In this document: positions 8,833 to 14,652 of the stretch, in pieces
How the letters are laid out: each line of letters begins with the position of its first letter
How positions within the stretch are numbered: the stretch's first letter is position 1
NCBI GenBank assembly: GCA_014874475.1
Contig: JADBJJ010000023.1
Location: 190,001-254,000 of the forward strand
DNA: 64,000 nucleotides
Reading direction: 5' to 3'
Origin: Chloroflexota bacterium
GTDB taxonomy: Bacteria > Chloroflexota > Anaerolineae > B4-G1 > DUEL01
Notes under the pieces: model-generated
What the model saw: only the letters and a program-made list of their open reading frames with translations
The model's database searches: none
What the model was told of the DNA's origin: nothing
Position numbers and translations under genes: made by a program

Positions 8833-8853
8833 CGGCAACGAAGAGGTGAGTTG

Positions 8854-9555
8854 ATGGACGAGGAAGACCGCCTGGAAAGGGAAGAGCGCGAAGCGGAGGC
8901 ACGCGAAGAGTCCCTGGAAAGGGGCGCGCAAACCGGTTCCCGCCCGTCTGTGCCTGCCATAGACCCTTCCGCCCCGGCCGAGGGCGCAGGGAGTTCCGCT
9001 ACATCGTCCGACCCGACGGCCGAACCGACGGACGAGCGAGCCTGGTATGTAATCCACTGCTACTCCGGCTACGAGAACAAAGTCAAACACAACCTGCAGC
9101 AGCGCATTGAGACGATGCGCATGCAGAATAAAATTTTCCAGGTCGTCGTCCCGACTGAGGAAGAGATTGAGGTCAAAGACGGCAAGCGGCGGACTGTAGA
9201 GCGCCGAGTGTTTCCGGGGTACGTCCTGGTACAGATGATTCTGGACGATGAGTCCTGGTCGGTGGTCCGCAACACCCCTGGGGTGACCGGTTTCGTGGGG
9301 ATGGGCAACCGTCCGACGCCGCTGCGCCCGGAAGAGGTGCAGGCGATTATGAAGCGGATGGAGGCCGAGGCGCCCCGGGTCAAAATGACTTACAAGATTG
9401 GCCAGAAGGTGCGCATCATTGATGGCCCCTTCCGCGATTTCATCGGTGTGGTGGATACCATTGACGAAGAGCGGACCCGGGTGCGGGTCTTGGTCTCCTT
9501 CTTCGGACGAGACACACCAGTGGAACTGGACTTTCTGCAGATAGAGCGAGTGTAG
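8854..9555 (+). CDS. nusG: Transcription termination/antitermination factor NusG
   Basis: RNA-polymerase-bound elongation factor linking transcription with translation and Rho. The NGN domain begins at about residue 60 (AWYVIHCYSGYENKVKHNL) and contains FPGYVLVQM and NTPGVTGFVG. The C-terminal KOW domain is GQKVRIIDGPFRDFIGVV. A highly acidic, then Ser/Pro/Ala-rich N-terminal extension of about 58 residues precedes the NGN domain and is not part of the core family. ATG 8854 is preferred over the adjacent TTG at 8851; GAGGTGAG lies just upstream. Confidence 0.95.
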   Translation: MDEEDRLEREEREAEAREESLERGAQTGSRPSVPAIDPSAPAEGAGSSATSSDPTAEPTDERAWYVIHCYSGYENKVKHNLQQRIETMRMQNKIFQVVVPTEEEIEVKDGKRRTVERRVFPGYVLVQMILDDESWSVVRNTPGVTGFVGMGNRPTPLRPEEVQAIMKRMEAEAPRVKMTYKIGQKVRIIDGPFRDFIGVVDTIDEERTRVRVLVSFFGRDTPVELDFLQIERV

Positions 9556-9591
9556 CCGATTGCCGATTGCAAATTTGGTGGGAGAGGATAA

Positions 9592-10014
9592 ATGAAGAAA
9601 ATTAAAGCCGTAGTGAAATTACAGATTGAGGCCGGGAAGGCAAACCCGGCGCCGCCCGTAGGGCCGGCGCTGGCCCAGCACGGCATCAACCTGATGCAGT
9701 TCTGCAAGGAGTATAATGCCCGCACGGCGTCTATGGCGGGCAACATTATCCCGGCGGAAGTCACCATTTATCAGGACGGGTCCTTCACCTTCGTGCTGAA
9801 AACGCCGCCCACGCCGGACCTTCTCCGCAAGGCCGCCGGGGTGGATAAAGGCTCCTCGGAGCCGAACCGCAGCAAGGCGGGGCGCATCACTCGCGCGCAG
9901 TTGCGGGAGATTGCCCAGATGAAAATGCGGGACCTGAATGCCGTGGACCTGGAGGGCGCAATGCGCCAGATCGAGGGGACGGCGCGCAGTATGGGGATTG
10001 AGATTTTGGATTAA
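9592..10014 (+). CDS. rplK: 50S ribosomal protein L11
   Basis: Large-subunit protein of the GTPase-associated centre, binding 23S rRNA helices 43/44. The N-terminal domain shows [20 protein letters not shown] with the conserved proline pair near residue 21. The C-terminal RNA-binding domain follows [14 protein letters not shown] and ends in the typical [10 protein letters not shown]. 140 residues is normal length. GGGAGAGG precedes the ATG. It follows nusG by 36 nt in the standard order. Confidence 0.97.
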
Positions 10015-10062
10015 CCGGCCCGGTGGGAGGGCGATGCCCGTTATTCACCACAAGGAGGGAAT

Positions 10063-10779
10063 ATGCCGAAGAGAGGAAAGAAGTATCTGGAAGCACTGAA
10101 GAAAGTGGACCGCAACCGCCTGTACTCGCCTCAGGAGGCAGTCCAACTGGTCAAAGAGACCTCTTACACAGACTTTGACGCCTCAGTGGATGTTCACATC
10201 CGGCTGGGGGTGGACCCCCGCCACGCCGATCAGCAAGTGCGGGGGGTGGTTCTGCTCCCCCACGGCCTGGGCAAGACGGTGCGGGTGCTGGTCTTCGCAG
10301 CCGGCGACGCCGCCCGGATCGCCGAAGCCGCCGGAGCGGATTACGTTATCTCCGACGACGAAGGGATCAAGAAGATTCAGGACGGCTGGACGGATTTTGA
10401 TGTCGCCATTGCGGTGCCGGATATGATGGGAAAAGTGGGCCGCCTGGGCCGCATCCTGGGCCCGCGCGGTCTGATGCCCAACCCGAAGACTGGCACGGTG
10501 GTCCCGCCGGAGGACCTGCCTCGGGTGGTTTCCGAAGCGAAAGCCGGTCGCGCTGAGTTCCGCGTGGATAAGACGGCCAATCTGCATATCCCCATTGGCC
10601 GGATCAGTTTCTCCAACCAGGCGCTTTTGGAGAACCTGGCGGCTGCAATGGACGCGGTCAAGAAGGCCCGTCCTACAGCGGCCAAAGGCACCTACATCCG
10701 TAAGGTCACCCTGGCGTCCTCTATGGGACCAGGGATCAAGGTAGACCCGGTGGCGGCGCAGGCGCTGGAAGTGGCATAG
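10063..10779 (+). CDS. rplA: 50S ribosomal protein L1
   Basis: L1-stalk protein, which in many bacteria also represses its own mRNA. The 238-residue sequence carries the signature domain ([20 protein letters not shown]), the hinge and the [14 protein letters not shown] motif, and ends in the C-terminal VRKVTLAS-like strand ([15 protein letters not shown]). AAGGAGGG precedes the ATG by 6 nt. The L11-L1 pair is followed by the L10 leader. Confidence 0.97.
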
Positions 10780-10844
10780 TAGCAGATTGCAGATTTTCCT
10801 GCGTTCAGAAGGGGAATCAGCAGCAGATTTTGCATCAGCATATA

Positions 10845-10955
10845 GGGCCGAAGACAGCAGGCGCGCCGAAGGGCGCTGAAAGTGGCCTGCCGAGGCTGGA
10901 GAGAGTGTCCGTTTCTTCATTGGGCGATGGTTTTCTATGCCCGGTGAAGCAGACT
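10845..10955 (+). promoter_or_regulatory. Ribosomal protein L10 leader (autoregulatory mRNA structure)
   Basis: The stretch GGGCCGAAGACAGCAGGCG, later followed by GCCTGCCGAGGCTGG, has the conserved kink-turn-like pattern of the L10 leader family (AGACAGCAGG paired with CCTGCCGAGG). In bacteria this binds the L10-(L12)4 complex and represses rplJL. Here it leads straight into an intrinsic terminator at 10956-10988, so control may be by premature termination. Confidence 0.8.
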
Positions 10956-10988
10956 CCCCCGCGTCGGCTGGCGCGGGGGTTTGTTTTT
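10956..10988 (+). terminator. Terminator at the end of the L10 leader (attenuator)
   Basis: CCCCCGCG (10956-10963) pairs with CGCGGGGG (10972-10979) around an 8-nt loop, followed by TTTGTTTTT. It lies before rplJ, so it partitions L11-L1 from L10-L12 expression. Confidence 0.85.
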
Positions 10989-10995
10989 GGTGCGA

Positions 10996-11030
10996 TACGT
11001 GAAACGTGAAACGTGATGTGTGAAATGTGA
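10996..11030 (+). repeat. Iterated GTGAAACGT array before rplJ
   Basis: Imperfect 9-10-nt units of the form ACGTGAAACGTGAAACGTGA repeat through the stretch. Related arrays occur at 11593-11635, 13927-13983 and 43448-43488, each in sense orientation between co-transcribed genes. Confidence 0.6.
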
Positions 11031-11051
11031 GACGGAAGGAGGTGATGTCGA

Positions 11052-11597
11052 GTGGCTATCAGCAGAGCAAAGAAAGAGGAACGAGTAGAGCAGTATCTGG
11101 AGCACCTGCAGAAGAGCCAGGGGCTTATCCTGACCGACTACCGGGGCCTGCGGGTAGCGGAGGTGGAGGAACTGCGCCGGTCGCTGCGGGGCGCCCAGGC
11201 GACGTATCAGGTAGTCAAGAACCGGCTGCTGCTCCTGGCATTGCAACAGATGGGGCTCACGATGCCGCAAGAATGGTTGGAAGGCCCAGTGGCAGTCGCG
11301 TTCTGCCATGGCGAGGTGCCGGCAGCAGCGAAGGTGGTCCAGGACTTCGCAAAAGGGCGAGAGAAATTCGCCGTCAAGGGCGGACTGCTGGGCAAAACGC
11401 CGATTACGGCTGCACAGGTCAATGCCCTCGCCAATCTCCCGCCACGGGAGGTCATTCTGGCCCAGGTCCTGGGTGCGATGAACGCGCCAGCCTCCCAGGT
11501 GGTTGGAGTCGTCGCCAGCGGAATCCGGCAGGTGCTCAACGTGCTGCAGGCGTATGTGGATAAACTGGAGGGGAAGACGGCCCCCCAGGCAGCGTGA
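11052..11597 (+). CDS. rplJ: 50S ribosomal protein L10
   Basis: Stalk base protein that anchors L7/L12 dimers. It starts at GTG with AAGGAGGTGATG upstream. The N-terminal rRNA-binding part contains ILTDYRGLRVAEVEELRRSLR and KNRLLLLAL; the C-terminal helix (RQVLNVLQAYVDKLEG) is the L12-binding region. 181 residues is normal. It is likely controlled by the leader and terminator at 10845-10988. Confidence 0.95.
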   Translation: MAISRAKKEERVEQYLEHLQKSQGLILTDYRGLRVAEVEELRRSLRGAQATYQVVKNRLLLLALQQMGLTMPQEWLEGPVAVAFCHGEVPAAAKVVQDFAKGREKFAVKGGLLGKTPITAAQVNALANLPPREVILAQVLGAMNAPASQVVGVVASGIRQVLNVLQAYVDKLEGKTAPQAA

Positions 11598-11635
11598 AAC
11601 GCGAAAAGTAAAACGTGAAACGTAAAACGTGAAAG
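11593..11635 (+). repeat. Iterated GTGAAACGT array between rplJ and rplL
   Basis: Units such as GTGAAACGCGAAAAG and AAACGTGAAACGTAAAACG repeat from the rplJ stop to the rplL ribosome site. Confidence 0.6.
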
Positions 11636-11646
11636 GGAGGTAAAGA

Positions 11647-12030
11647 ATGGCCGATTTGCAGAAACTGGTGGAAGAGATCAGTCAATTGACGCTTCTGGAA
11701 GCCGCCGAACTGGTGAAGATGCTGGAGGAGAAACTGGGTGTGACGGCTGCCGCCCCGGTGGCATTTGCCGCAATGCCTGCCGCAGCAGCGGCTGCTCCCG
11801 CTGAACCGGTGGAGGAGAAGACAGAGTTCACCGTCGTGCTCAAAGAGGTCGGCGAGAAGAAGATTGAGGTCATTAAGGTGGTGCGGAAACTGACCAACCT
11901 GGGCCTCAAGGAAGCCAAGGATCTGGTAGAGAGCGCGCCGGCGACGGTGCTGGAGTCCGTCCCGAAGGAAGCAGCGGAGAGCGCCAAGGCGGAACTGGAA
12001 GCAGTCGGCGCCAAAGTGGAAATCAAATAG
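11647..12030 (+). CDS. rplL: 50S ribosomal protein L7/L12
   Basis: Flexible stalk protein recruiting translation GTPases. The N-terminal dimerisation domain ([21 protein letters not shown]) is followed by an Ala-rich hinge (~40-58) and the C-terminal factor-binding domain [20 protein letters not shown]. 127 residues is typical. The ribosome site GGGAGGTAAAG is close to the ATG. Confidence 0.97.
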
Positions 12031-12113: not shown

Positions 12114-13910
12114 TTACCCCCTCGCTGGATACCACTTCTGGAACCACGCGGTGAAGGCGAAGGCCGGGACCAACAGCAGGTTGCGCACCACGGTCCACAG
12201 TAGCGCCTGCTCGGGCTGCGCATGCCCCGCCAGCGCCAACACCGCCATCAGCAGATAGACCCATCCCCAAGCCGTGGTGATGATGGCGTTGGTCCGCAGG
12301 AAAACGGGGTGCTTCCAGAGGGCTGGTGGATAGGACCATTTGGAGTACTCGGCGGTGAGAGGCCGCTCGGCCGCCAGTGTCCCCAGCCAGATGCCCGCCA
12401 GCGCCAGATATCCCAGGACGCCCCCATAGTCGGCGAAGAACCGGTTCCCCAGGAACGTCGCCAGGCCCGCCAGCGCGAAGTACACAGGCGTCCCCGTCTC
12501 CATCCAGGTGGGGCGGGCGAAGAGCCGCCGGTACCCCCAGATCAGCGCCCCCAGCAGCAACGGGACCCCCAGGCTGACCCAGAGACCCAGGCCAGGAATG
12601 TCCATTGTCGCCCAGTGGACGATCCATGGGATAAACGCCAATGTGAGCCAGGCCATACCGGGGATGCGGATGGGCCCCCGTTGGACCGTCTCCTCTTCCG
12701 GTGGTACGGCGACGGGCTCGGACGGCGGGCTCGGCCCTTCCGGCCCGGAGAAGAGGTTTCCAAATCGCAGAAGCAGACTGAAGTCCCCCTCTACCCGATA
12801 TAGCCCCTTCACATAGGCGGCCTGTCCGCTCAGTTCGTTTCGGGCAATCTTCAGCCAGACGTCCGCCGGAGTGTGAATCGTCATCGTAGGCCGGGAGACG
12901 GTGCCCTCGTGGGCTGTGCATCGGCGGTCCCGGATGCGCAGGACATAATTCCCCGGCTCATCTCCGGTGACGACGAACTGGATGTCGGCATAGAGGTCTC
13001 CGGCAGCCGCAGGGTTGAAGACCGCCGCCATCCCCAGGATGGCCTCCCGGCAAGTCCGGGGCCCCTGTCCCAGATCCCCGACGGGCAGGGCAATGGGCGG
13101 GGAGAGGGAATCCTCAGGCTGTACCCGCACTCCGCTATCGTCTTGTGCCTGGCTACGAGCAGATGGCAGTTTGCCCTCACTCGGCGCCTGAGCGCGAGGC
13201 CCGATCTGGCTATCCCACCACAGGTTGGCGATGTTCGCGTAGACTTCCGGCTCCGCCAATGGGGTGTCCAGGATAATCTGAGTCTCCGGCAGGATGTGCC
13301 CATAGCGGACCAGTTCCTCTCCGGCCCGGCGAGCGGCATCGGGATACCACTGCAGGCTCTCTCGCAGCGCATCCTGGGCCAGCAACTCGCCCCCGGCGCA
13401 GAGGATGGTCGCCGCCAGTTCGGTGTCTGGGTTATCGGTGAACCGGCGGAACGTCTCCACCAGTGCGGAGAAGTGATGTCGCTCCGGAAAGCCGCAGTTG
13501 GAAATGAGGACCACCTTCTGGTAGGGCGGGCCATCGTTGTAGCGAGGTAGATGGAGGTAATGTTCCCCCCGCTGGACAATGTGCGGGTCCAGGTTGGGCA
13601 AGTGTCGGTCCATAAAGTCCTTCATCAGCCCGCTGACGGTAAAGACGTAGAGAGGCGTGGCATAGACGACGACGTCGGCCTGGCGGATTTTCGGGAGCAG
13701 GCCCGTCATATCATCCTTGTGGACGCAGACGCCGGGGGTCTTGGTCCAGCAGGTGAAGCACCCCAGGCAGGGGTTGATCTTCAAATTCGCCAGATAGACG
13801 GTCTCCGTCTCTGCGCCAGCGGCCCGTGCGCCCTCTAGAAAAGGCTGGAGGATACGGTCAGTGTTGCTCCGGCGCCCACGCGGGCTTCCGTTGATAGCGA
13901 AAACATACAT
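12114..13910 (-). CDS. Flavodoxin-like reductase fused to SCP2-like domain and membrane helices
   Basis: The ~598-residue protein appears to hold three parts. Residues 1-~210 are an NAD(P)H-dependent FMN reductase/flavodoxin-like fold (AINGSPRGRRSNTDRIL, a Cys cluster INPCLGCFTCW, VVYATPLYVFTVSGLMKDF). Residues ~280-385 resemble an SCP2 sterol-carrier-type domain (DIQFVVTGDEPGNYVLRI, TPADVWLKIARNELSG). Residues ~415-595 form about six transmembrane helices. The start at 13910 has AGGAGG 5 nt upstream; alternatives at 13913 and 13931 fit less well. It follows a PadR regulator on the same strand and is presumably co-regulated. A membrane-tethered flavoprotein acting on a lipid or quinone-like substrate is a guess. 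Confidence 0.75.
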   Translation of the reverse strand: MYVFAINGSPRGRRSNTDRILQPFLEGARAAGAETETVYLANLKINPCLGCFTCWTKTPGVCVHKDDMTGLLPKIRQADVVVYATPLYVFTVSGLMKDFMDRHLPNLDPHIVQRGEHYLHLPRYNDGPPYQKVVLISNCGFPERHHFSALVETFRRFTDNPDTELAATILCAGGELLAQDALRESLQWYPDAARRAGEELVRYGHILPETQIILDTPLAEPEVYANIANLWWDSQIGPRAQAPSEGKLPSARSQAQDDSGVRVQPEDSLSPPIALPVGDLGQGPRTCREAILGMAAVFNPAAAGDLYADIQFVVTGDEPGNYVLRIRDRRCTAHEGTVSRPTMTIHTPADVWLKIARNELSGQAAYVKGLYRVEGDFSLLLRFGNLFSGPEGPSPPSEPVAVPPEEETVQRGPIRIPGMAWLTLAFIPWIVHWATMDIPGLGLWVSLGVPLLLGALIWGYRRLFARPTWMETGTPVYFALAGLATFLGNRFFADYGGVLGYLALAGIWLGTLAAERPLTAEYSKWSYPPALWKHPVFLRTNAIITTAWGWVYLLMAVLALAGHAQPEQALLWTVVRNLLLVPAFAFTAWFQKWYPARG

Positions 13911-13926
13911 CATAACCTCCTTGCAT

Positions 13927-13983
13927 CTCACTTTTCACTTCTCACGTTTCACTTTTCAGTTTCACTTTTCACGCCGCACGTTT
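13927..13983 (-). repeat. Iterated GTGAAAAGTGAAAC array between padR and the fusion gene
   Basis: On the minus strand, units GTGAAAAGTGAAACTGAAAA repeat through the padR stop region up to the ribosome site of the next gene. Confidence 0.55.
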
Positions 13984-14516
13984 GGTATTGCGCGCCTTGC
14001 CTCCTCTGTCCACTCCATTGCGGCGCGGGTGAGCCGGACACCGTAATCCAGCGTGAGCGCCCAGAAAAAGACCTCGCGGGGAGACTGGATCGCCTCAGCG
14101 TATTGGGCAGCCTGCTGGGGAATCCGGGCATACTCTTCCAGCCGGGCCCGCAGGCGGGCCTCATATGCTTCCAGCAGTGCGACGGCCTCCTCGTCTGCCA
14201 GTTGTCCTGCGAAGAAGACTTTGATCAGCAGAGGGACGCGGGGATCCTCCGGTTCGGTGGGGGTGCACAGCCACCGGCGCAGTTCCTCCCGCCCCGAGTC
14301 GGTGATATGGTAGACCTTGCGATTGGGCCTGTCCTCCTGCGGGACAATCTCCACCGTCGCCCAGCCCCGACGCATCAGGTCCCGCAGCGCGCGATAAATC
14401 TGGGCCTGATCGGCGGGCCAGAAATGGCAGACAGAAGTGTCAAAGGCCTTTTTCAGATCATAGCCGGTCATCGGGGCATAGTTCAGGAAGCCAAGAATGG
14501 CATGGGACAAAGACAT
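13962..14516 (-). CDS. PadR-family transcriptional regulator
   Basis: 184-residue PadR repressor. The N-terminal winged helix is SLSHAILGFLNYAPMTGYDLKKAFD, with YRALRDLMRRGW and the wing NRKVYHITDSGREELRRWL. The C-terminal PadR_C (Vir) helices (~95-180) mediate dimerisation. AGGAGG is close to the ATG. A palindrome at 14536-14561 overlaps its own promoter, as expected for autorepression. The fusion flavoprotein downstream is the likely co-regulated target; the inducing ligand is unknown. Confidence 0.9.
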   Translation of the reverse strand: MSLSHAILGFLNYAPMTGYDLKKAFDTSVCHFWPADQAQIYRALRDLMRRGWATVEIVPQEDRPNRKVYHITDSGREELRRWLCTPTEPEDPRVPLLIKVFFAGQLADEEAVALLEAYEARLRARLEEYARIPQQAAQYAEAIQSPREVFFWALTLDYGVRLTRAAMEWTEEARRAIPNVRREK

Positions 14517-14535: not shown

Positions 14536-14561
14536 TGACTTGTCTTATATATGACAAGTCA
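14536..14561. promoter_or_regulatory. Palindromic operator in the padR promoter
   Basis: TGACTTGTC (14536-14544) and GACAAGTCA (14553-14561) form perfect 9-bp arms with an 8-nt AT-rich spacer. It lies between the -35-like TTGTCA and -10-like TATAAA of the minus strand, 20 nt before the padR start. Confidence 0.7.
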
Positions 14562-14652
14562 TATTATATCCCAGGCCGCGATTTCTGTCAAGGTCTGGGA
14601 AAGGGAGTGCTGACGACTGCGAAGGGGATTCCCGGTCGGGGTAGCCAGTCTG

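Follow-up and report, generated by a model that had tools for sequence, protein, structure and literature searches.

The gene at positions 12,114 to 13,910 of the window (the whole stretch of DNA analysed, 64,000 nucleotides) encodes a fusion of three parts, from the N to the C terminus a flavodoxin-fold FMN reductase, a domain of the sterol carrier protein 2 (SCP2) family and a predicted membrane domain of six helices. We consider it about an even chance (roughly 0.5) that this protein is a PadR-controlled, inducible, membrane Isf-type reductase, in which FMN would receive from the SCP2 domain a lipophilic substrate that is quinone-, polyene- or enone-like. The catalytic and carrier parts come from known families, while for the combination, the membrane domain and the operator no description was found in the open-access literature. 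A search of that literature for an architecture of SCP2, flavodoxin, FMN reductase and PadR returned no paper, and no NCBIfam model was found for the fusion. The features discussed below are as follows.

12114..13910, minus strand: fusion coding sequence, 598 aa, ATG at 13910 (basis: open reading frame, translation, and homologues of equal length and order)
13206..13913, minus strand: flavodoxin-fold FMN reductase domain, residues 1-236 (Pfam FMN_red, Foldseek)
13725..13769, minus strand: CX2CX2CX7C, residues 49-63, probable [4Fe-4S] ligands (Isf compact motif)
12750..12983, minus strand: SCP2 domain, residues 311-388 (Pfam 2.3e-8)
12120..12647, minus strand: six-helix membrane domain, residues 423-598 (AlphaFold2)
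13962..14516, minus strand: padR (PadR and Vir_act_alpha_C, Pfam 1.1e-16 and 3.2e-16), upstream of the fusion gene on the same strand
14536..14561, minus strand: dyad TGACTTGTC-N8-GACAAGTCA with exact 9-bp arms, just 3' of the -10 box, probable PadR operator
14563..14591, minus strand: sigma-70-like promoter TTGACA-N17-TATAAT of the padR-fusion operon (from sequence)

A recurrent three-part fusion

The sequence-only reading had proposed a three-part fusion with a polytopic C-terminal third, and this is borne out by Pfam matches to FMN_red and SCP2 and by an AlphaFold2 model. The full-length model, built with 74 homologues (mean pLDDT 87), shows an alpha/beta flavodoxin domain, a separate SCP2-like alpha+beta domain and, last, six helices of membrane length; residues 241-265 and 394-416 form disordered linkers. 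Because the full-length pTM is low (0.52), the model gives little confidence in how the three parts are arranged relative to one another. An alternative in-frame ATG at 13913, from which residues are numbered here, gives a protein of 599 aa; an AGGAGG lies upstream, 2 nt from this ATG and 5 nt from the one at 13910.

A fusion made by sequencing is ruled out because proteins of congeners are approximately 80-86% identical to that of the window along their whole length. Homologues lacking the fusion had been named beforehand as the mark of an artefact; what was found instead are full-length homologues in several phyla, 29-86% identical, among Chloroflexota, Bacillota, Coriobacteriia and others. 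An artefactual or chance fusion was rejected on these grounds, as was a fusion restricted to the window genome, since the family is recurrent. A scan of GTDB genomes gave 80 loci at 27-85% identity, and nearly all of them keep the full-length order. The hosts are Thermoflexus-like Chloroflexota, many Clostridia (Lachnospiraceae and Oscillospiraceae, common gut members among them) and Coriobacteriia, most of them members of anaerobic groups. Further hosts are MAGs that bear the labels Spirochaetales, Synergistaceae and Desulfovibrio; such MAG labels may err in places, one "Crenarchaeota" locus being 64% identical to the Chloroflexota gene. Among 199 sampled genomes from the class of the window, the full fusion was seen only within the window's genus. 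No conserved downstream partner genes were seen in the Bacillota loci.

The N-terminal domain resembles iron-sulfur flavoproteins

The FMN-reductase motifs noticed earlier in the N-terminal part correspond to a Pfam FMN_red match (PF03358) at residues 2-104 (3.7e-20, 72.5 bits against a cut-off of 24), and a Flavodoxin_2 match (5e-12) also exceeds its curated cut-off. The domain carries a phosphate loop (NGSPxGxxSN) and the motifs PLY and KxFxDR, and the FMN phosphate-loop residues N8, S10, P11 and N17 belong to the 50 invariant columns of the family alignment. Its closest folds are azoreductases and NAD(P)H:quinone oxidoreductases (Foldseek, E down to 9.6e-9), and the best PDB sequence match is the flavone reductase FLR (7d38; phmmer, 1.3e-12). 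FLR and the azoreductase/NQO-type quinone reductases share the FMN fold of the fusion and reduce lipophilic aromatic substrates, but they are soluble and resemble it only in its N-terminal part, and the fusion has no match to FLR's C-terminal tail.

What had been described as a CxxC cluster is exactly Cys49-X2-Cys52-X2-Cys55-X7-Cys63, present in 74 of 74 members. The compact motif of iron-sulfur flavoproteins (ISFs), a proposed [4Fe-4S] ligand, is CX2CX2CX5-7C (PMC3164229), and the fusion family places such a motif within an FMN flavodoxin-like domain. Because the motif of all members equals the published one, we call the N-terminal domain an Isf-type iron-sulfur flavoprotein, its [4Fe-4S] cluster being putative. 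The Isf family shares with the fusion both the flavodoxin-like FMN domain and the compact cysteine motif, but Isf, whose prototype is from Methanosarcina thermophila, is known as a soluble protein that lacks an SCP2 or membrane domain, and the 60 best PDB sequence matches of the fusion include no chain of that name. FLR has a similar cysteine-rich stretch in which the last spacing is longer. Its paper (PMC7862272), searched by term, gave no mention of iron-sulfur, so cysteines at an FLR-like position need not bind iron.

An [Eubacterium] eligens plasmid (L126:1652-8220) encodes a relative of the N-terminal domain as a protein by itself, with 40% identity to residues 1-225 of a Bacillota member. 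Its neighbours form a lipid-type cluster of acyltransferases, an acyl carrier protein, an adenylate-forming enzyme, a patatin and an SGNH hydrolase.

The SCP2 and membrane domains

The middle region, placed between the flavoprotein and the membrane domain, had been likened to SCP2, and here profile and modelled fold agree: it scores 34.7 bits against the SCP2 profile (PF02036; curated cut-off 21.3) and is modelled at high pLDDT (AlphaFold2). SCP2 was detected in 66 of the 74 fusion members at E<=0.01.

Folded alone, the membrane domain is modelled with a pLDDT of 89.9 and a pTM of 0.85 (AlphaFold2). Its most conserved stretches are the TM4-TM5 loop (PLTAEYS..F..TN) and the C-terminal tail FTAWFQKWYP, which was also one search pattern of the locus scan, so conservation of the tail among loci comes partly from selection. 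With six helices, and provided that the flavin domain is cytoplasmic, loop and tail would both be cytoplasmic and could form a docking face. No Pfam family was found in residues 400-599, a Pfam scan of the domain's relatives gave stray single-member matches only, and Foldseek found no PDB fold match at E<=0.001 (best E 1.4). VC0807_fam (NF041646) is matched weakly by 16 of 28 membrane-domain members (best 2e-9), which suggests a distant relationship to the VC0807 family. The scores nevertheless stay below the cut-off of 65 bits, the best full protein among the matches listed reaching 44.6 bits, and the profile was not detected in the membrane domain of the window member. No papers on VC0807 proteins were found in the open-access literature. 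The membrane domain is sparse in sampled genomes, occurring in 15 of 400 from the window's phylum, 11 of 291 Clostridia and 14 of 198 in the actinobacterial phylum sample.

A dedicated PadR and its probable operator

Control by PadR, suggested earlier from the window, is supported by the gene neighbourhoods of homologues and by a conserved operator-like palindrome at the promoter. By tblastn, 63 of 79 loci have a same-strand padR upstream, at most 68 bp away in 60 and across a CrtI-like gene in 3. The palindrome, TATTC-N-AC-WW-GT-N-GAATA (18 bp), occurs upstream of padR at two or fewer mismatches in 53 of 54 non-Chloroflexota loci (33 exact), loci that are related by descent and do not amount to 54 independent events; 0.07% of mononucleotide shuffles reach this score. 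The dyad of the window shares its ACTTGT/ACAAGT core. The exact palindrome is found in 16 of 16 whole genomes, as one site each or as a tandem pair 27 bp apart (two genomes), and by sequence these are the padR-upstream sites. A reversed-pattern control gave zero matches in the 16 genomes. A regulon beyond the operon was rejected, there being no second site in any of the 16 at zero mismatches.

A maximum-likelihood tree unites the PadRs encoded beside the fusion, beside split forms and beside two TM-CrtISO fusions in one group (97/95) that stands apart from 16 paralogous PadRs of the same genomes, and the PadR of one split form (L144) groups with those of the TM-CrtISO loci (100/99). Because the PadRs of all three arrangements form one clade, the regulator has remained linked to the membrane module, whichever of two kinds of enzyme that module is joined to.

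Alternative partners of the membrane domain

Other ARRANGEMENTS of the same pieces were found. In three congeners (L121, L122 and L123) the order is padR, a CrtI-like gene (7.7e-40 with crtI_fam) and the fusion gene. L120 and L144 have padR followed by separate flavodoxin-SCP2 and TM-SCP2 genes, with a CrtISO-like gene approximately 2.4 kb downstream in L144. In L145 and L146 padR directly precedes a TM-CrtISO-like fusion, the enzyme part of L146 being assigned from its sequence without a profile scan. TM-CrtISO/CrtI fusions also occur in L112, L113 and L114 (Chloroflexota), beside which no padR was found, and in L163, L168 and L170 (Actinomycetota sample); in all eight of these loci the six-helix domain is N-terminal in the CrtISO/CrtI-like FAD enzyme. 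Two further arrangements were observed: L115:2652-4964 joins SCP2 and the six-helix domain to an apolipoprotein N-acyltransferase (Lnt)-like protein, and in L049:6001-8277 the fusion extends into a Rce1-like CAAX protease domain (PF02517). Because the membrane domain is also found in CrtISO/CrtI, Lnt-like and CAAX-protease-like fusions, it is a module common to enzymes of membrane isoprenoids and of envelope lipid processing.

A genome-wide search of the window genome found no CrtI-like gene, and 15 of 18 non-Chloroflexota fusion-bearing genomes gave no crtI_fam match at 1e-10. An obligatory CrtI-like partner was therefore rejected: since the gene is missing from most genomes with the fusion, the partner is dispensable and the fusion must have a function of its own.

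Proposed function

We hypothesize that PadR would repress the operon and be released by a small ligand, probably a hydrophobic or aromatic one. The putative [4Fe-4S] cluster or FMN of the fusion would receive electrons from ferredoxin or NAD(P)H. The SCP2 domain, on its flexible linkers, would pick up a lipophilic substrate, either out of the bilayer or from the membrane domain, and hand this quinone-, polyene- or enone-like compound to reduced FMN. The membrane domain would anchor the fusion and probably supply the substrate. In Chloroflexota, the occasional CrtISO/CrtI-like FAD enzyme of the operon would work on membrane substrates of that class too. The sequence-only reading, by which electrons pass to a membrane lipid or a quinone-like substrate, fits the domain logic, the azoreductase and quinone-reductase matches and the membrane domain shared with CrtISO, and the CrtISO link suggests that the substrate may be a polyene or isoprenoid. 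Against the carrier role assigned here to SCP2, domains of this family can be structural or bind other ligands. Among the invariant residues, no catalytic one could be linked to a substrate class.

The same CrtISO link lends itself to a different and, in our judgement, unlikely explanation, that the fusion is an electron donor keeping the flavin of a membrane CrtISO/CrtI-type FAD enzyme reduced, in which case a membrane isoprenoid would in truth be isomerised, saturated or desaturated. CRTISO requires FADred (PMC3382138), and the operon of the three congeners, the downstream CrtISO-like gene of L144 and the CrtISO-like enzymes fused to the membrane domain behind orthologous PadRs would all suit a donor. 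In Chloroflexota these FAD oxidoreductases are linked to the fusion by the membrane domain joined to them and by PadR lineage, but their catalytic fold differs, and the absence of a CrtI-like gene from the window genome and from the 15 non-Chloroflexota genomes shows that the partner is dispensable. Direct reduction of a lipophilic substrate is preferred because the fusion must have its own function where no CrtI-like gene is present.

Two further explanations were weighed. ISFs have been proposed as O2 and H2O2 reductases (PMC3164229), and with the Isf motif in the fusion and anaerobic groups as most of its hosts, the protein might be a membrane-placed Isf-like O2/H2O2 reductase that protects anaerobes, SCP2 merely tethering it or protecting lipids. 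We regard this as quite improbable, given that the regulator is a PadR and not a known peroxide or redox regulator, that its operator has a single target, unlike a stress regulon, and that the SCP2 domain is retained in nearly all arrangements. More improbable again would be a flavodoxin domain that serves as a redox sensor gating a membrane channel or flippase, as KefF/KefG assist Kef channels. The membrane domain does have a conserved face and the N-terminal domain matches KefF/KefG models weakly, but these matches fall far under the cut-offs and reflect a common fold, and CrtISO-like catalysts also carry the membrane domain by fusion.

If direct reduction by a membrane Isf-type protein is correct, Isf-type flavoproteins, about whose physiological roles little is known, would acquire a place in the membrane and a probable type of substrate, and anaerobes would have a route to reduce bilayer-dissolved compounds. 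As padR, operator and gene form a self-contained unit, the inducer of this single dedicated PadR should indicate the substrate. A broader proposal, which we hold tentatively and with some doubt, is an undescribed PadR-controlled membrane redox system, common to gut anaerobes and thermophilic Chloroflexota, in which a six-helix domain of unassigned fold would be the platform on which interchangeable flavoenzymes (Isf-SCP2 or an FAD enzyme resembling CrtISO) dock; their substrate, a membrane isoprenoid or a quinone-like lipid, would be reduced, saturated or isomerised.

Genomic context of the window locus

Short repeats resembling AAACGTGAAA / AAAAGTGAAA lie at 13914-13961 of the window, between padR and the fusion gene, which is the interval that the CrtI-like gene occupies in the congeners; the repeats may have served in the loss of that gene from the window locus. 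Similar repeats recur at 10999-11640, amid ribosomal protein genes. The nusG-rplK-rplA-rplJ-rplL cluster (8851-12030, plus strand) is convergent with the fusion gene, and the congener locus L122 retains this neighbourhood.
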